A program made the translations under genes and the position numbers. DNA of 64,000 nt, from assembly GCF_020520425.1 (NCBI RefSeq), contig NC_079492.1, forward strand, positions 138,698,361 to 138,762,360. Reading direction: 5' to 3'. The stretch comes from Spinacia oleracea (lineage: Eukaryota; Streptophyta; Magnoliopsida; Caryophyllales; Amaranthaceae). A model generated the notes under the pieces. It was not told the origin of the DNA and did no database searches. It was given only the letters and a program-made list of their open reading frames with translations. Shown in pieces: positions 1,925-39,112 of this stretch. How positions within the stretch are numbered: position 1 is the first letter of the stretch; each line of letters opens with the position of its first letter.

Positions 1925-2340
1925 ATAAGCAGAACTCAGCAGCTGACACCAGATCACACAAGACCAGAAACTGGAGATTAGATACTGCTGATAAAATTAT
2001 AATTACGTTCAAAATTTCGTATTTCATTAATAATGCCCTACTACTAGCATCGCTGAGGCGCCATTTGGATGACTTTCCCATTTGTACTACGTGTGTTTTC
2101 TTATGAATGAACAGTGTATGTTATGCACTGCTATTAAAAACTATTGCAGACTTTTCCAAGCAAATGTTTACCAATGAACCAAAACCTATGGACAATCGTC
2201 ATCAAACCATGTAGAATATGGGATCGCTATCTAGAATTCTTCATTTAGAATTTATCACTCCACTCAAACAGGGGAAAAGAGGATTATTGAAGATTGGAGC
2301 ATCAACTAAACTTTTGCAAGTTGCAATTACTTGCTTAAGC
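1925..2340 (+). other. 3' flank of copy 1, end of duplicated unit A
   Basis: This 3' UTR-like sequence is homologous to 6127-6590, for example tatgcactgct near 2123 and 6360, and accaatgaaccaaaa in both. Homology fades after about 2330, near the gattggagcatca stretch. No coding potential is seen. Confidence 0.6.
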
Positions 2341-3403
2341 TTAAGAAATACCTAAAAGGCACAAAACCAAAACAAGTGAGAAAGCCAGGGTCAAGATAGC
2401 ACGGTTCCAGCTTTCCCGTCACTAAGCCTGCTTCTCCCACAATTTTCACTTTCTGGACCAACGCGAATCTGCCCTTGAAAGTCTCTCAGCATTTTGAGAG
2501 CAGAGCATGCAAATTAGAGCAATGGATCTTCAAAGAATTCCGCCATACTGTAAAACGTTGCAAGCCTGTTTTCTGGCAGAAGTGGTATCTCGAATTGAAT
2601 CAGCTCAACGCGAGACCCGGCAAAGGGACCAGACCATGGATCAGAAGGCAAAGTTTCATTAGTTCCCTACGTCTCTAATCTCCTATTCACCATTCTAGTG
2701 TTCTGTGCTTCAGGAACAGGAACAGCTGGCAAAAGGGAAGAATCTCCAGGAAAAGACTAGTCTCTCTCTTTCCCTTTAACTGTCCTGGGCAATCCTCAAA
2801 GTTAGATAGAAAAACCCCTTTACTGTGTTAAATTCGCCAAACCCTTGTGTCATTACAGAATACAAAATACAGATTTAAGGCTATTGCCGACAATGAGCTG
2901 GCTTTCAAAAAAGAAAGTAAGCCCAGTGCTACAGAAATATATCACATTAATCATCCCATTAGATTCAAGATTTCAAGAGGCATGAATTTGCACTCTCAGT
3001 TTCAGCAGCTTTAACAGTGAGACATAACCACACCGAGGAGAATGAAGCCTTAACCCACAGATGAGTTTCAGCACTATCAAGGGTTTGTTTCAACTTATAT
3101 TTTGACTTATTTCATAAAAGTTTTAGACAGTTTTAGACAAAATAAGTTTTTTCACACGATTTCAGACAATTAAGTTTTTTTCTCGACAATATAAGTAGAT
3201 AATTTGATTTCCGTCAAAATCAGATAAACCAAACAGAGCCTAAGAAGCATGTCCTAATAAACCATGAGTTGCAAAAAGTCTTTATTTGGCATAACTTTTG
3301 TTTTCGACTGACCAATTACATGAAACTACTCTTTTAGTTAATTGTCTTGAACTTTTTAACTTCACATATCAGTATGTTGAGAAACTCGAAATTTAAACTA
3401 TTA
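2341..3403. other. Non-coding spacer with a possible small hAT-type MITE
   Basis: No gene is recognised. Around 3078-3241 the ends gggtttgttt and aaaccaaacagagcc form a poor inverted pair. This resembles hAT-type MITEs with GGCTCTGTTTGG ends, but no target duplication is clear. The rest shows nothing. Confidence 0.3.
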
Positions 3404-4385: not shown

Positions 4386-5164
4386 CTATCTAGTTTCAAA
4401 AATACGGATTCGCCAATAAAAAAACCTACTCACTTGAACATCTAAGAATATCAGAAACAAAGTTGTATGAAATTGAAGATATAAGCAGTTCCAATGCTTG
4501 TTTCTCTGTGTAGATATCAAATCCTATACGTTACTCCAGTTCCGGAAAATTGCAACATCTAGAGGAGTAGTGACGAATCTCTAAAACAATTATTACAAAT
4601 TATCATTTGCAAGAAAAAATATAATGCCTTATCTTTGTCAAAAGGGGCAAAAAACAAAAAACTTTAAGAACTGATGCAGCAAAGCATGGGATGTGAAGAG
4701 AATCCCTGCAAAGCACAAGAGGAGGAATATCTGCAAATTGTGGGATGTAGAAGTAACCTAGACTCTCTCGTGGTAAGGGTCAAACAATACAAATTGCATG
4801 AAAATTCCCTTAAGAGTAATGAATCAAAAAAACTTGACATATAGAGGAACCAGTATTAGTAACTAGCATTATGTGTCCTGAAATTTTTAATCATAAAAAA
4901 AAACAAATCAGCAGAGAAAATGAAGGATATGGTCACAAATGGCATCATTTGAATTGGGATGCCAATGCGCAATGGAAAACAGAACAGAAACCACTTTTGT
5001 CCACTTACCAAAAAAGGAAAAGATAATACATAACAAAGAACTAAAACGAAGCAGAATCAAAGAATAATGCAAGCACCTCACTACCAACTAGCAAGCATCA
5101 CGACAAAAAAGAAGGGCGGGGGGATTCTTCTGATTGCTATATAAGATAGCGTGATTAACTCACA
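4386..5164. repeat. Upstream part of tandem duplication, unit B
   Basis: Homologous to 1-957 at an offset of about 4.1 kb. It carries the presumed promoter of the second His-rich gene. No coding region is seen. Confidence 0.75.
5138..5145 (+). promoter_or_regulatory. TATA box of His-rich gene copy 2
   Basis: TATATAAG stands 101 bases before the second exon break-free start near 5246 and is conserved with copy 1 at 1006-1013, in an otherwise diverged flank. Confidence 0.6.
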
Positions 5165-5245
5165 TTGATCATCAAGCTCCAATCTCAGCAAATAATCCCC
5201 CTTTGTACTAAAAACTCCAGTGCCCGTAGCCCATTCACCACCATC

Positions 5246-6126
5246 ATGGCTTGTATGCAGATGTCCAGGAGTGAAGCCGAAAAGATGAAGTGCAGCAATG
5301 GCTCTCAAGGTTACTGCTCGTCTGACTACAAGCAAGAGGTGCACCAAGCAGCTGGGTGTGCAGTGCCCCAAGCTGGGAACCACAACATTGCAAGTAATGC
5401 TGGATGTGCATCTAACCAAGTTGGGCACAATATGGGAGGCAACCACGGCCATGCCAGCCATGGCTCTGGCCACAATGGTCATGCCATTCATGGCTCTGGC
5501 CACAATGGTCATGCCATTCATGGCTCTGGCCACAACGGCCATGTCAGCCATGGCTCTAGCCACAACGGCCATGTCAGCCATGGCTCTGGCCACAATGGCC
5601 ATGTCAGCCATGGCTCTGGCCACAATGGCCATGCCATCCATGGCTCTGGAAACCATGGTCATGTCAGTCATGGCTCTGGAAACCACGGCCATGTCAGCCA
5701 TGGCTCTGGAAACCATGGACATGCTAGCCATGGCCCTGACCACCTCAGCCATGCCAACCATAGCTCTGGCCAACATGACTGTGTCACTGCCAACCATAAC
5801 TCTGGCCAACATGGCTCTTCCCATCATGGAAACAACCACCACAACTCTGCCAACCATGGTGCTACCCACCACCACTCTTCACACCATGCAAGCTGCGAAG
5901 AAAAGAAAGAAGAATACAAAGTCTGTAAATCAGGACACAATAAGGGTGAGAAGATCAAGAAGAAATCGTCTAAGAAGTGCAGTGATGACAGCAGTGACAG
6001 CGAGAGTGACAATGAAGGGCATGGGAAGGCAAGTATTCGATTAACAGCATAATACAAAAAATTCTAAACCTTTATATCTAATGACTAGATGTGCTTATAT
6101 CTTTCTCTTGGTTACAGAAGTGCTAA
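5246..6126 (+). CDS. His/Gly/Ser-rich disordered protein, tandem copy 2 (two exons)
   Basis: CDS join(5246..6028, 6118..6126), 263 residues. The N-terminus (MACMQMSRSEAEKMKC) and C-terminus match copy 1. The array is longer, roughly eleven 10-residue HGSGHNGHA-type units, while the 12-residue Cys repeat occurs once instead of twice. The tail is Lys-rich then acidic Ser-rich. The intron 6029-6117 again has a GC donor (AAG|GCAAGT) and cag acceptor, and the last exon again gives Lys-Cys-stop. Both copies keep an open frame and the same exon structure despite indels, which suggests both are or recently were functional. Function is unknown; metal binding through His and dehydrin-like chaperoning are guesses from composition. 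Confidence 0.7.
5450..5745 (+). repeat. 30-bp coding minisatellite in copy 2
   Basis: About ten imperfect 30-base units around catggctctggccacaatgg. There are three or four more units than in copy 1, so the array has changed in length since the gene duplicated, always by whole units. Confidence 0.85.
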
Positions 6127-23257: not shown

Positions 23258-24201
23258 ATGGAGGGCAAGCGGGTTTCTTACCAGAAAAACATAGCAACAG
23301 CACTCCTCATCTTTGCAATGGGTAAGTAATTATACATATTGCATTTTTCTTCATTTTTCACTAAGTATATATTAAAATTGCCGTAGCCATTTTTATTTAT
23401 CAATATATATTCAATATTAATGCATTATTATTTGTCAGTTTCAATTCAATATACTACCGTACCAAGCTAATAGCTACGGAGTATATATGCATTACTCCCT
23501 CTGTCCCTTAATACTCGCACCGTTTTGACTTTTTGCACTATTCACATAATTCACTTTGACCTTATTTTATTTCTAGTATATGAAAAATAAATGTTAGTGT
23601 ATAATATATTGTTGGCTTCATCTTAATATATATTTTCAAAATATTAACATTTTATAAGTTTTTATAATATGTAGTTAAAGATATTGGTGGTCAAAGTTGT
23701 GCATTGGCATGCGTGTCCAGTCAAAACGGTGCGAGTATTAAGGGACGGAGGGAGTAGTACTTAATTACGGAAGCTGATACGTACATATACCCTCTGGGTA
23801 TGGACTAGTGTCATACCCTGTGCTCCTATTGGTTGTTTTCACAAAAGCAACCCCACATGTGATTTAAATTTAAATCTAAAATAGCAACCCCACATAGAAT
23901 TGTTCAATCTAAACTAATCACAACACAGGGTATGACACTATTTCATACCCAAGGGATATATGTAGCCTTTTTGCTTAATTAAGTATGTAACGTCTGTACG
24001 TACTTGTGCGGAATCTAGTTGTTAAATTAATGTTGTAACCACTTTCATGATGAATCTGCAGTGCAACTGATGTTCGTTGGTAAAGCACAAGGTTGTGGTC
24101 TTGCTGGGAACGGCTGTGGTTTATTTGACTGGTGTTGTAATGGTTTTATTTGTTCCAATTCAGTTACAGGAGGTGTTTGTCAAACAAGTAAGTCTGATTA
24201 G
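23258..24201 (+). CDS. Secreted six-cysteine knottin-type antimicrobial peptide precursor
   Basis: CDS join(23258..23321, 24062..24201), 67 residues. Residues 1-31 form a signal peptide: a basic start (MEGKRVSYQK), a hydrophobic core ATALLIFAMVQLMFVG, then KAQ. The mature part, from about Gly32, has Cys at 33, 40, 46, 47, 52 and 61, spacing C-X6-C-X5-CC-X4-C-X8-C. This fits an inhibitor cystine knot and resembles Caryophyllales peptides such as Mj-AMP and PAFP-S (known from memory). Those are secreted antifungal peptides acting on membranes. Splice sites are g|gtaagt and ctgcag|tg, splitting a Val codon inside the signal peptide. The 740-bp intron carries two MITEs. The usual Tyr/Pro-rich loop before CC is absent, so target range is uncertain. 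Confidence 0.85.
23495..23754. mobile_element. Stowaway MITE in knottin intron
   Basis: Ends ctccctctgtcccttaatac and gtattaagggacggagggag with TA on both sides; 260 bp. Shares ends with 11533-11858 and body with 7575-7834. Confidence 0.9.
23782..23964. mobile_element. MITE in knottin intron with 41-bp inverted ends
   Basis: Left tacatataccctctgggtat and reversed right tacatatatcccttgggtat pair over about 41 bp, ending in gtgtcataccctgtg. The body repeats gcaaccccacat twice. The superfamily is unclear. Confidence 0.75.
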
Positions 24202-24551: not shown

Positions 24552-24582
24552 CTAGTATTTTATGCACGCGATGCGTGCGTGC
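24552..24582 (-). repeat. Helitron 3' terminus: hairpin plus CTAG
   Basis: On the minus strand a 6-bp stem (gcacgc, loop atc, gcgtgc) is followed by ten A/T-rich bases and CTAG. Such hairpins act as the rolling-circle stop signal in Helitrons. Confidence 0.8.
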
Positions 24583-24778
24583 ATTTTAGAAACTTTATTG
24601 TGCCTATTATTTCATGCACATCATTCGCAAAGTCCATATTTTGCGACATTGAGGTCATACAATACTCGTAGCCTTACATGACGAATTTAAAGCTATTAAA
24701 AAAATGTAACATTATTTTGATACAACTAACATATCCCATTGGAAAACCAAAATTGAAGTACATACAAAATAGTAATTA

Positions 24779-26805
24779 TCACTTTCTTTTTTTGCTCGCA
24801 ATATATTTGTTTAACCACATGCACTCCTCCGCCCAATCGATATGCAACACATATCCAACCGTATACGAATGTTCAGGATTAAAAGCTTCAATTGGTGGAT
24901 GTAGCACCCATGAAAAAGCTTTGTTTCCGAAGCATGCAAATACTTTTTCCATCACTCGATTACGTCCATTAGGCTGCATGAACGTTAAAAAATATATTCA
25001 AATGTAAAATCAACATGAGTTAATTTTTTTTAAACAATTATGTTGTTAGAGTATTAGATTGAAACCTGTTGAAGTACTGATTTTATTTCAGTAGCTAAAC
25101 AACCTAAGAGGTGTTGTGCAAGATCGTGTAATATTGTGACTTTCAAATTACCACTTTTATCAAATATGGTAAGTCGAAGAAGCAACCTATAAAACGAAAT
25201 TAAATCAATTTATTAATATAGATAAAAATCAATATATAATGTGTGTTTAAGTATAAAAAAGATTTAGATAATTACCTTGGGATAGTTACAGTGTTGGTGA
25301 GATTGCAGGATTGACATTTTTGTAGTCCTTGAAAAATGACAACCTTTTTAAGACAACGATTGCATGCCTCATATATGATGTTATCAACACTATCAACGCG
25401 ACATGCATATGCAGCAACTCGACAGTATTGAACCTACCAAAAAAAAAAAGCAAAGTTAGACAATTAAGTACATAATATCGTATTTTGTTGACAACACTTA
25501 AACTTCAAGGTTAAAAACGATACCTTTCTCACGCTAGAGAATTGAGATAATCGGATACGGGGAGTGTTAGAAATGTCAATCGAAGACTTTAACGAAAAAG
25601 TCGACGAACGAAACCAATCTCTCCTTATATTTGCCAGTTTTTCCGATTTATACCTATACGTGAAAAAAGTTATGAGCATAATACTTAAGGTTATGTTGTA
25701 CATGTATTTGGCGAAATTGTACATACCATGTAGATAAGGATGTTGTTTTTTCATTAACCGGGTTAACATAAACCCTAGTGTGGTATCCCGTGGAAAGATA
25801 TGTACCTGTTTGTATTTATCAATTAGAAATATTATCACAGGTGGATATATACTTTAAACTACATATTACAAAGACATCATCTACAAAATAATTTAATTTG
25901 GATGATGTACCATAGAAGCTCTTGACATGCAGACCACATGCTACAATGATTGGACAAATGTCAACATGATTAAGATTTTCATCAAGAACGTGCACAAAAT
26001 CATTCCAAAGTGTTAATTTAATAACAGTCCAGCTGCAAGTAGAAATGAAAACAATATTAAGACAAAATATTCGAAATACAGGTAAATTCGATAAGTAATT
26101 AACATTATAATAATTTAGCGGACTTACGTTGTATCCATTATTGCTACGTCTCGCTTGACTGAATCCACACCAATATTCTCAACTGGTGAAACGTATAGGA
26201 CCAATCCCATTGCATCTAAAACATCATCAATGTTTCAATTAATAAACGACATATGCATGATAACTGAATATTGAAAAAAGGCAAACAAAAGTACCATAAA
26301 CTCTATTGGTACAGTCGATGTGACAACTTAATCGGTTCAACTGAACCAAATTATAGTGGAATGAAGGTATGGAAATGTCATCCTCCTCTTCACGTATCAC
26401 ATTTGTTTCTTCTTTAATGATCATCTGTTTCCAATTGGGGACAATTTTGTTTTTCCCTTCAGCAAATATCACTTGTACAGCAAGGAGTATATAAATGAAT
26501 CCCTCTTGAAACCGTCCTACAAACTTTTCAATCGCGGGGCCGAAAATATTGCACTGTATGCCCTCACCCTACAAAAGGAAACACATGCAAAGTTATGATA
26601 TAGTGCAGATTCAATGAAAATTTAAATGAAGCATAAGGTCATTTACCTCAACATCGACAAAAAGCATTTTCCATGTTTGCTTGGTTTTTCCTTTATGGTT
26701 GTAGTTGAAAATATCATAATTGCGAATCAGTCGGGCTCGTACATCATATCGTTGTACCCCGCTAGGATATAAATGCTCAAAAGTTGGATAATGGTACTCT
26801 GTCAT
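24779..26805 (-). CDS. Helitron RPA1-like single-strand DNA-binding protein
   Basis: A multi-exon gene 254 bases downstream of RepHel on the same strand. Clear exons: 26805-26647 (MTEYHYPTFEH ... FVDVE), 26568-26295 (GEGIQCNIFGPAIEKF ... CTNRVY), 26215-26128 (DAMGLVLYVSPVENIGVD) and one starting near 26040 (WTVIKLTLWNDFVHVLDE); these join in frame by normal GT-AG sites. Further exons near 25830-25500, 25435-25280 and 25170-25070 follow, the last ending IKSVLQQ. The final exon at about 24970 gives QPNGRNRVMEKVFACF to the TGA at 24779. OB-fold segments and a CNRC ... CQSC zinc site match RPA1. Such genes accompany RepHel in plant Helitrons and presumably coat displaced single strands. Middle exon borders are not certain, and I saw no clear break. 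Confidence 0.75.
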
Positions 26806-27058
26806 CCTGTAAAGTTAGTTCAGTTCAAAATTAGAATTACATAAACCGAAATTCACAATGTATGAATAGGTATATCACATGAAAAGAAAGCTATGTACAT
26901 GAATACATTTAATTACTCCGATATATAAAATTCACATCTCTCAATTCGTCTGTAGTTATATCATAAAGCAATTATTATTATAAAAACTACTCAATGTGAG
27001 TACAATACCGTTTATTATAAAACTGGGAAATAAAAAACAATACTTTAATTCCGTATCT

Positions 27059-30000
27059 CTAATCATAAGACAACAAAACTTCTTTGTACACAATATTTTT
27101 AGTGAATATGCCTTCACAACCTTGAACCTTTCCCTTTTCTACCACGATCTTTGTCGTGTTCTCAGAAATTCCTCGTGATAATGCCACATATAGCTGGCCG
27201 TGGCTAAATACATGATCGGGGAGGTATATCCCAACATGTGGAATAGTTTGTCCCTGAGACTTGTTGATAGTCAAGGCAAAACTCAACTTCACAGGAAATT
27301 GCTTTCTGACCATCTCGAATGGCAATTTAATATCTTCAGCAGTTTTCAAGGGAATTCTTGGCAAAAACACTCTGTTCCCCCTAGAATGTCCGGTTAATAT
27401 CTCAGCATCAATAAAATTGTCCTTTAATGAATGGCAAAGCAGCCGTGTTCCATTGCAAAGACCATGTTTAGGATCAATATTTCTCAAAAGCATTAAGGGT
27501 ACCCCAGGTTTCAGGGTGAGAGCATGGGGAGGCAATCCCGACGCAGAAATCGAATTCAAAAACTCTTGTTGGTACAAATTTCTCTTATCTTCAGGAACAG
27601 AATCAAACGAATAATACGTTTTTCCTTCTCCGAGAAACTTTTCGACAACCTTATTATTTATTCTATCAGCGTCTTCGTTCAGGGGTGTGATGATCGCCCT
27701 TTCAACTATAAAATTTCCATCACCAACGTGCTCACTTAAACTTGGAAAGATTTGGTCGATCAAAGCCTCGATCGTACTATCTGCCACTGTTGGCATAATC
27801 ATGGCAGTTGGTAACCTTATCATCTGATCTGAAACAGTAGGTTCATTACCGTTCCCAACAGAGAGTAAGAAATTAGCAAAGCCGTTATCATCAATTGATC
27901 TCATATTTTCTCTCAAACGCAAAATACGAATATGTCTCCACATAGGGGACCTGACAAAAGATGCGTCAATCATTTGAGCTCTAGTTCCGTTTCGAACCAC
28001 CGGTAAAACCTGTCTGAAATCACCACCGAACACAATAATTTTCCCCCCAAACGGCAAGTCATTCCCCATTAAATCCTTGAGTGATCGATCAACAGCTTCA
28101 AATTGATATCTGTGTGTCATTGGGGCCTCATCCCATACGATAATGGCAGAATTTTTTAGGAGAATTGCAGTTTTAGAACGTTTGGTAAATGAGCAAGTTG
28201 ATGAGCTGTCTGGATTAAGTGGAAGCTGAAAAGTCGAATGTGATGTTCTTCCCTGGTGCAACAACGTTGCTGCAATTCCAGATGTTGCAGTGGGGATAGC
28301 TATTTCGCCTCTACTCTTTACAGTAGCAAGAAGGGCTCTGTATAAAAATGTTTTCCCGGTTCCCCCAGGACCATCGACGAAGAAAGAACAGCCAGCCTTT
28401 GAAATGACAGCATTCATTATTGTGTCGTATGCAACTTGTTGGTCACTATTGAGAGTGCCAACGCATGCCAAATCCTCATCTGGAACCGGAACAGAAAAGT
28501 ACTCTTCCATGATAGAAGGAAGCTCGTCAATGTCATCAGTACATTCAGGTAAGCTTGGCAACTCCGTGTAGTCAGAAATCCTTTTTCTAAGTGGTCTTAA
28601 TAACCTATCTATGTCTTGCAAAAGTTTGTTAGTGAGGAAAACAGAATTACTTGTTGTGTTTGAGGCTGGATAATCCTCAACCATGTAAGGGAAAAACTCA
28701 TCCCAGAGTACTCGTAATCCAGTTGGTTGACAGTATACCAATATGGTTGCAAATAACCGACGTAATGCAGATGGCATTCGTACTGAACATGCTTCTAAAA
28801 GACATTGACGAATGCTTTCGTCATTTTCGATTAGACCGAGGGCTTCAGCTGCAGCCCTGAATGTAGGGTGTGTGACGCCATTGATCGTTCTTAAATGTTC
28901 GAACGATGTACGCTCCCTCACATGATTGAGTAACATTCTCAAATAAAATCGTTCTCCTTCCGATGGTGAAGCTACATACAATCGACCCATAACTCGTTGT
29001 GTACTTTTTCTCTTCTGCCATTCACGTGAACTCGTTAACCATCTGTAATGCTCAGGAAATTCTCGATAAAGATATTTCCTTGCATTTGGATCGACTGAAT
29101 TCATCTTGAAAAATTCAGTGAGCATCGTCTTAGAGTTTCTTGGGTTCGCTAACACGCTTGAGATTTGCTGGTTCCCTTCGAACCTCACTTGATGCATGTT
29201 TGGCAAATGAACCTGCAAACGATCTACGGCAGGACAGATTCTAGTCATGGGGAATTTGTAAAGTTTCCACATAGCTTCGGGTGCACAAATCCACCGTGCA
29301 TCGACATATTGTGCAATCTCATCTCCGTTATGAACTTCCATTGAAACTCTATCTGAACCCTTATGGATGTACTTATACAGATATTTGACACACTTGATGC
29401 TGCTGCATATCTCAATATTGATGTGACAATCGTACTTTAAGAGCAAAAGTGGATTATATGGGACTACCCACTGATTATCTACACGAACTCGTGAATTCTC
29501 ACGCAACGGTACTGCTGGACGATCTTGTGGACGACGGTAAAGAGGATATGAGTCATTGCCTTGCTTTGTATCATTGGAGAATTCCTTAGGGAATCCTTTC
29601 TTACAACTTCCTTGTTTCATACACGGGGATTTGTGGTTGAGAACACCACATGGGCCATGAATCATGTGTTTAAGAACTGCCTTATACAATTTTGGTTCTT
29701 GTTGTTCATCAGGAATCACTGCTCTCACAATCTTATCAAAGTCATCCGGAGTGGTTAGCTTGTCATTTTGATCAAGAATTAATAACATATGAACATGTGG
29801 AAGACCCCTCTTTTGGAATTCAATCACATATACATAAGCAACAACCGTTCCGAGGACGCCCCTTTCTAGAACATCCTTTTTCAACTCTTCAAGTTTAGCA
29901 TGAAAAACCCGTGTCAGCAGATCTGGACGATCGTTTGGAACTTGTCCGGCCAACAATTCTGATTGTATCTCTGGCCAAGATGGATTGCATGTCATTGTAA

Positions 30001-32080
30001 GAAATATATCGGGCTTGCCGAACTTATGAACCAATGCCATGGCATCTTGATACCTCTGGTGCATACCTCTTGGACTTCCAACGAATGAAGACGGCAGTAT
30101 GGTCCGTCGTCCAACATTTTCTGCAAATAGACATTATATAGACAAACTTTATTGCATGTGAAACAATGTATGAATTATTGAGTATAATCGCTTAACTTAA
30201 ATCAATATGGACCTGTGTTATGCTCTCCAGCATGTAAAGAATCCTCTAAACCCTTGTACAAATCAGCACGTATCTTATCTTGGTTGAGTGCAATCCACCT
30301 CAAATTATTGGCTTGCATTTTCACACAGTTATCGACAACAAATTGTTGCAGTAGACGACCGCCTCTTAAGATTAGAGAATCAAGATGTTGCCGCATCTAT
30401 AACACAAAATACTTGTTTTGGTCATAAAGGTCTAAGTATATGATTTTTAGGATAAGGCTTAAAAAAGAGTTATTAGAAATATGCACCTGAAACATGTATG
30501 CATAGAATTCCCGGCACGTCAACTTTTTACCAGTGGAACTTCGACTGTTTAAATCCCAGCCGTAAGAACCATAAGGGAACAGTAGAGGATACTGCAGTGG
30601 GTCATAATAACCGGCAGTGTCTTTGATATAACTTAGTTGCCCAGTTACTGACTCTACCATGATGTCCCTATCCTTCAAGTTGGAAATGTCATCACCTCCA
30701 ACGACAACTGCTGCTACTTGCGAAGCTGTCGGCATCGAGTATTGATGTTTATTTGTAGGTTGCTCTTTGATGACAAATTTGCAATCACTTAAGTCACTAC
30801 GCTGAGCAAGATGGCGGAGATTGTGGACAAAAGGATTGTGAGCATTCAAAATATTCTTGATTCTGTCGATGACATCGAGGCGTAATGATGAATTCTCTGC
30901 TGCACGATTTTCATTTTCATGCTCAGTATCATAAATGTAGAGTTGAAGAAATCGAGGACGATCTCCTTCGTTCAAAGGTAAGAAACCTCCAATACGATGG
31001 TAAATTGAACCTTGTGCACGGAATGTGTAAACGCCTTGACGTGCATTTGCTAGTTCGTCATCTAAATGAACTCCCATTGAAGTGAATGAAAAGACGTGGT
31101 TGTACTTACGGATGTTTTGCCTAAAATGAGCCCCATATTCCGATTGATCAGAATATAAATCAAGCATATCAGAGGATAATGGAAAATCAGGTAAGTTGAC
31201 CTTCCCACTTAAGCAACATAGTTCAGGAGATTCACAATGGAAAAGTCGTGCTTGGCAATGCGGACATGTTTTCATGGGTGGCAAACTGAATATAGGAACC
31301 CCTTGACTCTCTTGGTAATTTCTTGCACAATTTTTATAACCAGTTCTCCCTACTTTCCAGACCCTTATATCATCAGAAATGGGGTTTGATATGTTGTTGG
31401 TGTCGATTGCACGACTTTCACCGACATTGAATAATATGCCAGGCATGCGTATTTCATTTTCCGCCTCAACAAAGCGCGGCAATTCCCCATCGTCTGAAGT
31501 AGGGTATGGTATACGTGCATTGGTTGTACTGCTCTCGCCAACACAAAAGAATCGATTGGGCATGCCGCTTGAGTTTGATGTTGGGTCTGGGATGGTCACA
31601 GTGGTTGCGCTACTTTCACCGACACTAAAAAACCGATTTTCTAGATTTGCCCGAGTATCGAGTAAACGAAGTTCATCAATAGGTTGCACTGCATTATCAA
31701 ATCATGTTTTTGATTGGTTAGGTAAGTTGTCATGTTTACATACTTAAAATGAATTGATTATGTTCAGATTTCTTACTTTCACGCCTTTCATATCCAGTCG
31801 TGACATTATGGGCACGATTTGTGATGTCTGCCATAGCCCTTCTAACTCCCAAAGTGTTGGGAGTATTGGTAACAATCACAGGCCCTTCCGAACTTGGAGT
31901 TTGAGGTTGGCTTTCAGGAGTACCTATAACATCTGATTGGTTTTCACATGCATAGCTGAGTCGCCTTTTTGCATTTTGACAATCTCTTTGTTCTGGAGTG
32001 AGTGATTTTCTCTGTTGTCTTTTTTTATCCCTCCATATCGACCTTTGATCTTGCATACATTGATCTCCGTTCTCGTCCAT
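27059..32080 (-). CDS. Helitron RepHel: HUH nuclease and PIF1-family helicase
   Basis: CDS complement(join(27059..30120, 30213..30396, 30487..31688, 31777..32080)), 1,583 residues, all three introns GT-AG and in frame. The start is MDENGDQCMQ; exon 1 is basic (RSIWRDKKRQQRKS). A zinc-type region (CPHCQARLFHC ... CC) lies in exon 2. Rep motifs are FLTMTCNPSW (about 603), LPHVHMLL with the HUH pair at 672-674, and YLYKY at 810-814 with two tyrosines four apart, as in active Helitrons. Helicase motifs are GPGGTGKT (1147), WDEAPM (1226), FGGDFRQVLP (1261), then SFALTINKSQGQT (1510) and LYVALSRG near the end. This is the enzyme that nicks, unwinds and moves the element by rolling-circle replication in the nucleus. 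No key residue is missing that I can see. Confidence 0.92.
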
Positions 32081-32488
32081 TATGAAACTCTAAAACTACA
32101 CATTAATTTGGTTACTATAAGTTGTTTGTATTGTAATTTTGTTGCAATATAATAGAGATTGATAAATTAAATATTTTATTTTAATGCATTTTTTTTCCTT
32201 TTTTGCTAAAACGAACGTATAATTTTAAAATAAATTGAATATTTTATTTTGTTTCCTTTCGCTTTTCTGTTTTACTTAAAGGAAAATTTATATTTAAATT
32301 AAATTAAATATTTTATTTGAATGTTTTTTATTCTATGCTTTTCCACTAAAATGAAAGTCAATTTTAAGTAATCAAACATAATTTGTGTGTTTTTTTTATT
32401 TTAATTTTCGTATTAATATTCTTATAATAACTTTAGATGATACTTCTCTCGCCATTTGGTTCCGTTTTTTCGGTTTAGTAAAGCTAAA

Positions 32489-32868
32489 GCCCATTTTATT
32501 CTAAAAGCCCAATCCTTTCTATACTTAAGAACGTAAACCCTATCTGATGTTTGTTGTTATCCGCCGTTCCTCTTTTATGTGGAACCTATTTTCATTTGTC
32601 TCCTTACTTTCTCTCTCTCCTTCCTCTCTCAAACGATCTCCTTCCTAGATCTCCTTCCTCTCTCAAACGTTCCTCTCTCATCGTTTATCAGATCTCCTTC
32701 CTCTCTCAAACGATCTCCTTCCTCTCTCATCGTTTATCAGATCTCCTTCCTTTCTCTCCTTAAAGAATGGCGATAAACCTCAAATTTGGTGAAAATATGC
32801 GCTCAAATGCCTATCCTTTCAAATTCCGATCAACATATTGCGAAAATACTCAGATCAAGAAATATAAG
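32489..32868 (+). other. Captured host promoter, leader and first exon inside the Helitron
   Basis: Facing away from RepHel: two GCCCA site-II-type motifs (32489-32493, 32507-32511), a telo-box-like aaaccctat (32535-32543), a CT-rich leader, an ATG at 32767 and 34 codons (MAINLKFGENMRSNAYPFKF and on) to an AAG|GTTAAT donor at 32868. Together these look like the 5' end of a housekeeping-type plant gene, as Helitrons often capture. I do not recognise the peptide. No following exon is certain; 35079-35110 (cag|AGGAATGAACTCC) is a possible one. Confidence 0.45.
32610..32760. repeat. CT-rich tandem repeats
   Basis: Units such as ctctctcaaacgatctcctt and tctcatcgtttatcagatct repeat about four times in the leader-like region. 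Confidence 0.8.
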
Positions 32869-33069
32869 GTTAATCTCTCGCCTTACCCTCTCTCATCTTT
32901 TCTAATTTAACTAATTCAACTCAGATTAAGGGTTTTATGTAAATTACGCGCAAGTTTTTTTTTCTGATTGGAATGGGTATTTAGGATTTAATTTAGCGAT
33001 TAATTGTTGATTAACTAACTGATTTTTTTGTTTGCATTTTTTGGTTTGCATGTCGTATCAATGTGGAGG

Positions 33070-33205
33070 GTAAGGTCGCTGGCGTGGCGGTGGAGAAGCG
33101 ATGGCGAGGCGAGGCGAGGCGCGGGGCGAAGCGATGGCGAGGCGCGGGGCGAGGCGATGGCGAGGCGCGGGGCGAGGCGATGGCGAGGCGAGGCGATGGA
33201 CAATG
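33070..33205. repeat. GC-rich minisatellite (gcgaggcg)
   Basis: About 21-bp units of gcgaggcgcggggcgaggcg and gcgatggcgagg, six or so. This is very GC-rich against an AT-rich background. A weaker relative occurs at 33945-34005 after a similar ggtttgcatgt lead-in, so the array and its flank appear duplicated about 870 bp apart. Confidence 0.85.
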
Positions 33206-35560
33206 GTCAGGTTCTGTTTAATATAACTTTGTTTTAATTTGGTGAGATTTGTTGTTACTATTCCAAGAGTACAATTATTTGTATGTTTCTTGAATTTAAC
33301 GTTAATTTAACCATTATTGGGGTTCGTCAAATTTTTTTATCTGTTAATTTGAGAATTTGTTGGGGTTTGAGAATTTGAGAATTTAACCATTGTTGGGGTT
33401 TCGTGTTTTAAATTTGAGAAATTGAGAATTAAACCATTATTGGGGTTTTGTCTAATTTGGTGTTACTATTATCGGTGTCTAATTGTTTGTATCTGGTAAA
33501 AGTCTTATATGCACGCATATTAGTAATTAAAACTTAGATTCGTTTGACGTTTCATGAATGTTCTAGAGCATGTAAAAAGTCTCCTCTCTTCTCCCAAAAC
33601 ACACACATACAAATACGCCTCGTAATGAGCACCAAGCAACCAATTAGTAAACTACTACATTCCGGTAAGTAAAAATTAAATGTTTTTCTGCTAAAAACGA
33701 AAATTATAATTTAAAACAAAAGTAAAAGTTTTAATTAAAAATAAATTAAAAATGTTGTTTTGATGCGTTTCATTTTTATGTCTTTCTGAAATATTCATTT
33801 TCGTTTTAGTAGAATTCAGTAGTTGGCCCATTTTTAAGCGGAATATCAAAATTATTGTTGCTTAACCAAATTTTTTTGCAATTTTGGTTTGCATGTAGAG
33901 TCCCTCTATTGGTTGGAGAGGAAGGTGCACAGATGTTGGGCAAGACGCGTGATGGGCGATGGGCGAGGCGGGGAAGGCGATGGGCGAGGCGACCGAGGCG
34001 CTGGTCAGGTTATAAGTTGTTTAAATTGGGTGAGATTTGTTACTACTTTGGGTTCGTCAATTCTTTTAAATTATAAACTGATTTGGTTGTTTGAATTTTA
34101 TTTTATTTGTGTGATTTGGTGGTATGAATTTATTTAGATTTGGTGGTATGATTTGTTGTTGAGTCTTGATAAGATTGGGACTTTGAGAATTGAACATGTT
34201 TCGGCTTTTTTTTTGATGGAATTTGTTTTTTTGTTGCCTTTTGTTTTCTCTTGCTGCAGTATTACTGGCTCAAATTCCTATTCTAAATAATGCTCAGTTA
34301 TCTTATATTTGTAAGCAATGGTCTATAAATTCAGTTTAGTTGGTTAAATCGTGGGCCATGACAATCAAATGTAACACCTAATATTTTGGGCCATTTATAT
34401 CTTGGTGTGTACCTAATATTCTGCTCTACCCAAGCAGCATTATGAATTGGTGTTGTTTGTTTGTAGAAATATCCTCATTTTTTTGAGTTGAATGCGGAAA
34501 TTAAGTACTTTAGTGAAAATCATGATATTATTTTCAGTTAGTGTGATTTGTAGGGGTTTAATTAGGGGTTTGATCTTGTTGTTTAGATAATTTTGTGTGT
34601 TTTTCTAGTGGATTGTCTTGATTTTCTTAATGTTATTGTTTATTAAAACACAAATCAAAACTAAATTACCTAAATTGATGTGTTAATCACATATTGAGCT
34701 CTAGATCAACCCCGTTATTGAGTACCTTGATGTCGTTGTCACTTTGTTGAGCCGAAACATGTAAATACAACTATTCTTGCGACTCGAACTCCCATTATTC
34801 ACTCTGTAATTTTGGTTAATTCAAGAAGAGATGAGGGATTAGGTTAGTTCACTATGCATGGGTGAGATCATTGTGCGTGGGTGAGGGGAGGAGGGAGATG
34901 ATGGGTTTTTAATACTGAATTTTGAAACAATGTGCGTGGGTGAGGGGAGGAGGTGAGATTAATATGCTTGGGTGAGATCATCCTGATGTAATTTTTTTTA
35001 GATGTATTTTTATTTATTAATTACTCACTATATTTTAATCGAATAAATGCATTTACTGATGCTCGCTACACAGAGGAATGAACTCCTTAAAACTAAGGCG
35101 TTGCAGAAGGATTCGGTTATTTCAGGCTTATCTTTTTTGTTCTTGATTTACAATTGATGCCGATTTCTGCTTGAATTCTGATGTTTTTTTTGTTTAATTT
35201 AGTTTTGAAATATATTAGGGTTAGTTAGGGTTTAAGACATGTTTTAACGGACTTAATAACATAGCTTGAGTGCATGGGGTTATATTCTGATTTGAATTTG
35301 AATTTTATTGATGTTTTATTTGTTCATCTGATTTTGCTGTTTTTCATGAGACTATTGGGTGTTATTGGATCAAATGTGACTGTATGTTGTTATGGTGAGA
35401 TTTGTTGATTTAGTTAGAATGAAATTTGATGATTTTCTTTTCGTTCCATGTAATTAAAAGCATGATCTAAAATCTGTAATAGTTAATTAAAATTTGTAAA
35501 CGCATGTATACAACTTATTCAATTAAAATCTTAGATAACTTATTCAATTAAAATCTGTAA
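33206..35560. other. Helitron left-arm non-coding sequence
   Basis: T-rich, intron-like sequence with a partial duplicate of 33.0-33.4 kb at 33.85-34.2 kb and a small duplication of gtgcgtgggtgaggggagga at 34873 and 34930. No recognisable gene. Confidence 0.45.
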
Positions 35561-35561
35561 T

Positions 35562-36052
35562 AACTTATTCAATTAAATTAAAAGCAGGAAAAGTAATCTG
35601 TAATAAGTAATTAAAATCAATAAAAAGCATGCATACAAATATTATGTTTAAGAGATTGGTTGGCCACATACCTTATGCCGTTGTTATAGTATGCCTTGAT
35701 GAACTTAACACCCAACTCAAAATCAAACTAAAAACCGAAATTATAACCTGCAAAAGAACAATTTATTTCAGATTTTTATAGAACACATGTTTAACTGAGT
35801 TACTTGATAATTAAAAATGAGAAGGGTATAACAACTTATTCAATTAAATTAAAAGCATGAAAAGTAATCTGTAATAAATAATTAAAATCAATAAAAAGCA
35901 TGCATATAAATATTATGTTTAAGAGATTGGTTCGCCACATACCTTATGCCGTTGTTATAGTATGCCTTGATGAACTTAACACCCAACTCAGAATCAAACT
36001 TAAAACCAAAATTATAACCTGCAAAAGAACAATTGATTTCAGATTTTTGATT
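35562..36052 (-). repeat. Tandem duplication (271-bp period) with an exon-like segment
   Basis: Two copies, about 35562-35783 and 35833-36052, are about 90-95% alike by eye. Each holds, on the minus strand, a stretch opened by gcag, reading GYNFGFKFDSELGVKF in the right copy, and closed by ataag|gtatgtgg. This looks like an exon of about 79 bases with both splice sites kept. It may be a captured host exon; the source is unknown. Confidence 0.55.
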
Positions 36053-37050
36053 TACTTAATGAACAAACCCTACTTCAAACCCCTACTAAATTCTGCATTA
36101 AAACAAATGTAAGTCAATTATATTTAAAATCATAATTCTAATAACAAAAAATTATATTATCACAAACCTTCGTTGTTGAAATCTGCAATTAAAAATTAAA
36201 AAAATTATGAGAGATTATTTAACCAAATGCATAAATTAAGATATAAAATAATTAATTAAAATCTATAGAAGCAAGAATATAACCTACCTTATATTTTGAA
36301 ATCTGCAAAATAAATAAGCACCACAATATTAGAAAAGAACATTTATTTTGTGCATACAGTCACAAATTTAATTTCTGTTCTTATTTTTTATAGTCTTGTA
36401 TAAATAAAAATGATACTGTTATGCGTACAACATTCCTTGTATTTTTATGATATACACAGATTTAAATATGCCCATACAATTAAAGTTTATGATTTATTAT
36501 TATAGAAAAATGGTTGAATTCTGTTTGTATTTTTTTTACAGAGGATTCATACGAAAAGTGTACTTACATGTGGGAGCGACTTCAAGAAGAAACAATGGTG
36601 ATGTGGTTCTTTTGAGAACGGATTTCTTCTGGGAATCAGCGGGGAGAGGTTTCTTGTTTTATGGTTTCTGGAATTTTTCTTCTGATTTCTGGTTTAGGAT
36701 CTGGTTTAGGATCAGGGCTTCTGCAGTTAATTAGAAAAATTTATTCTTTTAGATTTGTAATATTTTTCGTTTCATTTGGTAACTGCAATAAGTGTAATAT
36801 TTTATTTTCCTTATTTGTTTTTCGTTTCATTTGGTAACTGCAGTAGTTGTAATATTTTATTTTCCTTATTTTCATTTATTTCCTGATTTAATCAATCAAT
36901 CAACATCAGCTTTGGTAATTGAGATAAAAAGGATTGATTTTGGGCGTCACTTAAGGTCTGGGGTGCAATTAAACTGTAGAACTGCGTTGGGGTATTTTAG
37001 TCTTTTAACTGGGGGACACGAAAAGCCAAATTACAAAATAGACCTCAGCT
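36053..37050. other. Helitron 5' arm
   Basis: A short direct repeat (ttcgtttcatttggtaactgca near 36766 and 36822) and otherwise AT-rich sequence leading to the 5' end. No gene. Confidence 0.45.
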
Positions 37051-37070
37051 GTTCCTTTATAGAATAGAGA

Positions 37071-38688: not shown

Positions 38689-39112
38689 TTAGTCTTATAT
38701 GCGTGCGATGCGTGCGATGATATATTATATTATGTAGAAAAAAATTAATCGCAAACTTTCTCAACAGAAAAAGTAATACATCAAAATCATTGGGGGGTGC
38801 ATTTTTGTTACGGAGTATATTTGTTTAAAATATTTAAATTAAAATATGATTTATTTTGAAAACATAAATTGTGGCATAATAAAATACGGAGTATTAAGGA
38901 AAAAATAAATTATGTATTTAATAAGGTGTATATTTGGCTATGATTAAGTGTTTTATTGTCACTTTTTTTTTCCACTTTTTGTATGTTGTGATTAAATGTG
39001 GTTGACTAACTATTTTTCTTTTATTCTTTTTTATTTTATTTTTCAATTAATGTCAATATCGGGGACACCAAAAAGGCATTTACAAAAATGACCTCAATAG
39101 TTCTCTTATAGA
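38689..39112 (-). mobile_element. Non-autonomous Helitron (424 bp), same family as the 12.5-kb element
   Basis: On the minus strand the 5' end reads TCTATAAGAGAACTATTGAG then gtcatttttgtaaatg and ggtgtcccc, close to the large element's 5' end. The 3' end reads GCACGCATCGCACGC then atataagaCTAA, followed by host T. Flanking A and T fit the Helitron A|T target. It could be moved by the RepHel of the large element. Confidence 0.75.

Follow-up and report, generated by a model that had tools for sequence, protein, structure and literature searches.

The 64,000-nucleotide stretch of spinach DNA analysed here (C6:138698361-138762360, referred to as the window) contains a 12,519-bp Helitron on the minus strand, which occupies exactly positions 24552-37070, its 5' TC beginning at 37070 and its 3' CTAG finishing at 24552. 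We consider it, with a probability of about 0.9, to be a structurally complete plant Helitron of the autonomous type, which encodes both a RepHel protein and an RPA-like protein and belongs to a recently mobile family. It displays the hallmarks of Helitrons, i.e., TC/CTRR ends, a 3' hairpin, insertion between A and T without target site duplication, and the RepHel domains, and we assign it to the RPA-bearing plant Helitrons, a known group of which it is a new member. The coordinates of its features are collected in Table 1.

Table 1. Components of the spinach Helitron, in window positions.
Feature	Position	Strand	Evidence
Complete Helitron	24552..37070	-	End positions same in 11/11 copies, A/TC...CTAG/T
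5' terminus TCTCTATTCTATAAAGGAACAG	37049..37070	-	76 exact genome matches, control 0
5' non-coding region, ~5 kb, mosaic between copies; 220-bp direct repeats (35558-35777, 35829-36048)	32081..37049	-	Copy comparison
Recombinant junction, element bases 2023/2024, marks five-copy subfamily	35047..35048	-	Pattern at 5 genome places, control 0
RepHel exon 1 (304 bp)	31777..32080	-	Open, GT-bounded in 5/5 other copies read
RepHel exon 2, with Cys/His-rich stretch	30487..31688	-	Partly aligned to distant RepHel of same genome
RepHel exon 3	30213..30396	-	Joins 2/3 and 3/4 inside one open frame of distant RepHel
RepHel exon 4: HUH, YLYKY, PIF1-type helicase; stop at 27059	27059..30120	-	Pfam, Helraiser 7lcc
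RPA-like gene, nine exons, 441 aa	24779..26805	-	Pfam, PDB chains; exons 7-9 open to stop in 5/5 other copies read
3' terminus: hairpin, then AAAATACTAG	24552..24584	-	Fold; last 26 bases have 166 exact genome matches, control 0

We searched the whole genome (894,210,420 bases in 242 contigs) for copies of the element. In all 11 copies whose ends were read (that of the window and ten others), the sequence takes the form A/TCTCTATTCTATAAAGG...CTAG/T between unrelated flanks; the element starts with TCTCTATTCTATAAAGGAACAG and closes with CTAG, and homology ends at the same base, preceded by A and followed by T. A misplaced 5' end is ruled out by this common halt of homology. The 3' hairpin, with an 8-bp stem and a 7-nt loop, stops 10 nt short of the 3' end (the definition of Helitrons calls for a hairpin of 16-20 bp or similar, 10-15 nt from the 3' end). 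Its folding energy is -9.1 kcal/mol, compared with -3.84 (sd 1.51) in shuffled sequences, and none of 200 shuffles equalled it. The limits, hairpin and CTAG proposed in a preliminary description of the window therefore hold, and the genome search for copies sharing both ends, which that description had suggested as a check, gave agreement in every end-read copy. The preliminary description also had the 5' TC matched by a short relative; the relative does align near the 5' end, but only from element base 8 onwards, so that the exact TC end rests on the full-length copies. This relative, which is diverged and Helitron-like, lies at 38690-39112 in the same orientation, ~1.6 kb beyond the 5' end, and at its other end aligns to the hairpin and CTA of the element. 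Since 40 RepHel matches were scored among 92 candidates, many of the exact genome matches to the first 22 bases (36 forward and 40 reverse) and to the last 26 bases (92 and 74) must be shorter relatives without RepHel. A search of the whole 64-kb window against Rfam returned no matches.

In the RepHel model, three GT-AG introns (88, 90, and 92 bp) separate four exons, and the product has the same 1,583 aa as the earlier in-frame reconstruction. The HUH pair, the YLYKY tyrosines and the helicase motifs mentioned earlier were likewise located (HUH at residues 672-674, YLYKY at 810-814, and GPGGTGK at 1147). In the frame of the last exon, Pfam recognises PIF1 (7.3e-71), Helitron_like_N (2e-47), and Pif1_2B_dom (3.3e-20), and residues 7-1020 of this frame align with Helraiser K1068Q (PDB 7lcc, E=2.4e-250), pairing LPHVH, YLYKY, and GPGGTGKT of this element with LPHAH, YLFKY, and GPGGSGQT respectively. 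The joins between exons 2 and 3 and between exons 3 and 4 are supported by the distant, 44% identical RepHel L005 from this genome, which runs as one open frame across both; the alignment is gapless at join 3/4, has a two-residue gap just past join 2/3, and does not extend to join 1/2. The join between exons 1 and 2 is predicted from conserved splice letters, exon length, and a raw pN below pS: exon 1 was open, 304 bp long and flanked by GT-AG intron ends in all five further copies read, and pN/pS values were 0.033/0.079, 0.017/0.047, and 0.090/0.363 in the three comparisons made.

The RPA-like gene is modelled with nine exons and eight GT-AG introns, running from 26805 to 24779, and its 441-aa frame is open throughout, which rules out a broken gene. 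The spliced protein matches Rep_fac-A_C (57.9 bits) and REPA_OB_2 (29.5 bits) above the Pfam cut-off, with DUF223 (N-terminal OB, E=0.035) and Vps52_C (E=0.0025) below it. Among PDB chains, the best match is 4gnx_C over residues 17-429 (1.9e-17), followed by the RPA70 chain 8rk2_A (3.9e-15). The gene is recognisable only once spliced, because the five single open stretches of RepHel and RPA other than the last RepHel exon gave no Pfam family at E 0.1. By sequence, the element has what characterises the PHRPA type, namely an RPA70-like gene beside RepHel whose product contains OB folds and the C-terminal domain, and the open exons bear out the earlier view that this gene is intact.

Both genes were then compared across the best 30 copies (including that of the window) of 40 scored helicase-exon matches, out of 92 candidates. 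Fifteen of these best-matching copies (L009, which is the window copy, L010-L013, L019, L022, L024, L027, L029, L031-L033, L035, and L036) have GT-AG introns and uninterrupted frames in both RepHel (residues 118-1583) and RPA (exons 1-6); since the 30 were the best matches, this proportion does not stand for the whole genome. In L017, RepHel is open and RPA is not, while the remaining 14 of the 30 are broken in RepHel, some of them in RPA also; decay is therefore also common, with 15 of the best 30 copies broken. L017 has a neighbour, L015, ~8.5 kb away in opposite orientation (C4:90.55-90.57 Mb), and RPA is diverged or broken in both. Four copies were checked from start to stop in both genes, namely those of the window, C4:5.06 Mb, C4:167.4 Mb, and C3:151.8 Mb. 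The expectation that intact two-gene Helitrons are uncommon does not apply to this genome, given that half of the 30 best-matching copies, hence at least 15 in all, are open where checked, and for the same reason several other copies are as good candidates for a source element as that of the window.

The copies fall into subfamilies. Four copies differ from that of the window by 6, 7, 8, and 12 of 6,126-6,141 bases, and within the five-copy subfamily that they form with it (the window copy and L010-L013) mutual differences amount to 3-12 of ~6,140 bases. Divergence from the window copy is ~2.2% for L019-L024 and ~6% for L029 and its kin. At a substitution rate of 7e-9 per site and year, 3-12 differences would correspond to roughly 35,000-140,000 years. 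Because several near-identical copies are dispersed through the genome, we conclude from these comparisons that the family has transposed recently.

Substitution patterns between subfamilies were estimated by the Nei-Gojobori method over 1,462-1,465 codons of RepHel and over 277-284 of the 441 RPA codons (exons 1-6). For RepHel, dN/dS was 0.11 (window-L019), 0.14 (window-L024), 0.13 (window-L029), 0.17 (window-L034), and 0.14 (L019-L029); for RPA exons 1-6, the same pairs gave 0.31, 0.33, 0.31, 0.37, and 0.30 respectively. These ratios show a signature of purifying selection on both proteins between subfamilies. For two pairs involving the broken copy L038, the ratios were 0.36 and 0.52 in RepHel (1,358-1,361 codons) and 0.38 and 0.72 in RPA; we give them little weight because L038 aligns badly over the first 1.1 kb.

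To find empty insertion sites, we took 75 bases from either flank of every end-read copy (11 in all), joined them and compared the result with the whole genome, where 40 of 2,982 candidates were scored; seven of the 10 loci returned were aligned. For three of the 11 insertion sites we found uninterrupted paralogous sites in which A joins T with nothing gained or lost. The site at C3:7.5 Mb has two empty paralogues ~13 kb apart (98-99% over 300 bases), that at C4:165 Mb has one (98% over 300), and for that at C4:167 Mb identity is 92% over 251 columns at one place and 100% over 194 at others. The other eight sites, including that of the window, had no match through the join among the 40 scored of 2,982 candidates. 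The suggested check for A/T empty sites, run here on paralogues within the same genome, was thus positive for three copies of the family and negative, among the scored candidates, for the window copy itself.

These insertion sites bear directly on whether the near-identical copies might be segmental duplicates or assembly errors rather than products of transposition. One pair could be read in that way, L031 and L032 (C3:4.99 and 4.96 Mb), which are identical over 6,139 bases and lie ~36 kb apart on one contig, and which may represent either a duplication or two insertions. The 11 flank-read copies, however, have 11 different flanks, and three of their sites have uninterrupted paralogues, so that duplication is refuted for those 11 (L031 and L032 being outside them) and scarcely credible as an account of the family. 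Nearly as improbable, in our judgment, is an origin of the RPA-like gene by capture from the host, as a passenger with no working part in the element. Helitrons do capture gene fragments, and the dN/dS of RPA exceeds that of RepHel; still, an RPA ratio of about 0.3, the fact that the three subfamilies all have the gene with its introns and an open frame, and the account of PHRPA genes in PMC4683698 as an ancient part of many Helitrons in plants all count against capture.

The 5' 5 kb is strongly divergent among copies whose gene parts are nearly identical, as seen when five of the ten other end-read copies, L078 among them, were compared with that of the window in this region. Bases 1-2023 of the element are 96-98% identical to the copy at C4:167 Mb, which belongs to another subfamily, and bases 2024-3241 are 98% identical to the copy at C4:165 Mb, while each of these two copies is without the other's part or carries it at 67-94%. 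The similarity switches from one base to the next at element position 2023/2024 (35048/35047 of the window), with hardly any shared letters. A search for the junction pattern that allowed up to two mismatches found it at five places in the genome, all of them free of mismatches and corresponding to the five near-identical copies, and at none in the control. The occurrence of the junction at exactly these five places indicates that one chimera with an exchanged 5' end founded the subfamily and was itself mobile. We think it probable that new autonomous Helitron subfamilies arise in this plant by 5' terminal exchange, and that the five-copy subfamily stems from one chimera, which placed ~2 kb of 5' sequence resembling that of another subfamily on a different body and then transposed. 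With about the same degree of confidence, we would picture several subfamilies with intact two-gene copies amplifying side by side, with exchange of 5' ends giving rise to new autonomous ones. The exchange may have come about through template switching during replication, through unequal recombination, or through gene conversion. In practice, the junction provides a simple marker of one founder lineage.

The two copies through which the junction was compared are those at C4:165.09 Mb and C4:167.41 Mb (L060 and L061). Elsewhere in the 5' region, the copy at C4:5.06 Mb has a number of 220-bp repeats unlike that of the window copy. The A+T-rich part upstream of RepHel also contains G+C-rich direct repeats with units of ~23 bp (e.g., GGCGAGGCGCGGGGCGAGGCGAT) at 33080-33204 and 33948-33993.

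By analogy with Helraiser and with Helitrons generally, RepHel would introduce a nick at the 5' TC, one strand would be peeled off and copied through the action of the HUH/two-tyrosine domain and helicase of RepHel, and the 3' hairpin would signal the end of the element. The copy would then enter a new site between A and T, leaving the target unduplicated. A probable role of the RPA-like protein is to coat or protect the single strand. The five-copy subfamily itself goes back to a single chimera that had acquired its 5' 2 kb from a related subfamily. Whether the window copy still moves is a separate matter. We see an even chance that it was inserted recently and is now silent, i.e., that its letters are intact and it moved within roughly the past hundred thousand years, but has since been methylated and immobile. 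Most plant transposons are silenced, and the 3-12 differences per ~6,140 bases in the five-copy group leave room for tens of thousands of immobile years; nothing counts against such silence, and sequence alone cannot tell a silent copy from an active one. The window copy may also be an active source element today.

Among large plant Helitrons, Hel-It1 of Ipomoea tricolor also has RepHel and RPA genes, with a defective RepHel frame in contrast to the open one of the spinach element. In maize, the search for an intact autonomous Helitron had reportedly been unsuccessful up to 2011 (PMC3288121); this agrees with the general remark in the preliminary description that intact elements are uncommon, but not with the present genome. 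Helraiser, the reconstructed bat Helitron, has to our knowledge no RPA. Its RepHel (PDB 7lcc) aligns with that of the spinach element over 1,014 residues with the HUH, tyrosine, and Walker A positions conserved, and the spinach element, for its part, has introns and an RPA gene.

Rice Helitrons with both RepHel and PHRPA are treated in PMC4683698, where PHRPA is described as a gene of monocot and dicot Helitrons. The putatively autonomous sister-family of rice Mothra shares RepHel and PHRPA with the spinach element, and Mothra also has TC/CTAG ends; it differs in host and sequence, and five copies are described, compared with 15 intact of the 30 checked in spinach (PMC4683698). The same paper gives 8,064-15,513 bp for the rice two-gene elements (12,519 bp in spinach) and a re-annotated PHRPA of 472 aa in eight exons, compared with 441 aa in nine exons here (PMC4683698). 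Feng8 of the wheat Xuan-Feng family, as presented in PMC13286980, encodes a similar RepHel (1,676 aa compared with 1,583 aa, with HUH, two tyrosines and helicase) and has TC/CTAG ends and AT insertion sites in common with the spinach element. Its RepHel has seven coding exons instead of four, and its mobility is proven experimentally, whereas the spinach element is known from its sequence alone (PMC13286980); the word RPA is absent from the main text of that paper. Intact two-gene copies with near-identical sisters provide, in a dicot crop, naturally occurring material on which to test the questions recently opened by the Feng8 work, namely which copies are transcribed, whether RPA is needed, and whether mobility persists after exchange of the 5' end. 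In spinach, 1,297 Helitrons were reported by use of HelitronScanner, and the part of the source that reports them names no autonomous family (PMC6337768). Our literature search found no paper that describes this spinach family by sequence, which is not proof of absence.

Two further observations concern the sequence around the element. A small Cys-rich frame (GCGLAGNGCGLFDWCCNGFICSNSVTGGVC) lies at ~24060-24200 on the plus strand, ~350 bp beyond the 3' end of the Helitron; its 51-aa peptide matched no Pfam family at E 0.1, and it is perhaps a gene for a small secreted peptide. Near the start of the window, two similar open frames on the plus strand (925-1827 and 5159-6052, 300 and 297 aa respectively) contain many HGSGNHGH-like repeats, with a weak Pentapeptide_2 match below the cut-off, and apparently represent a duplicated gene.
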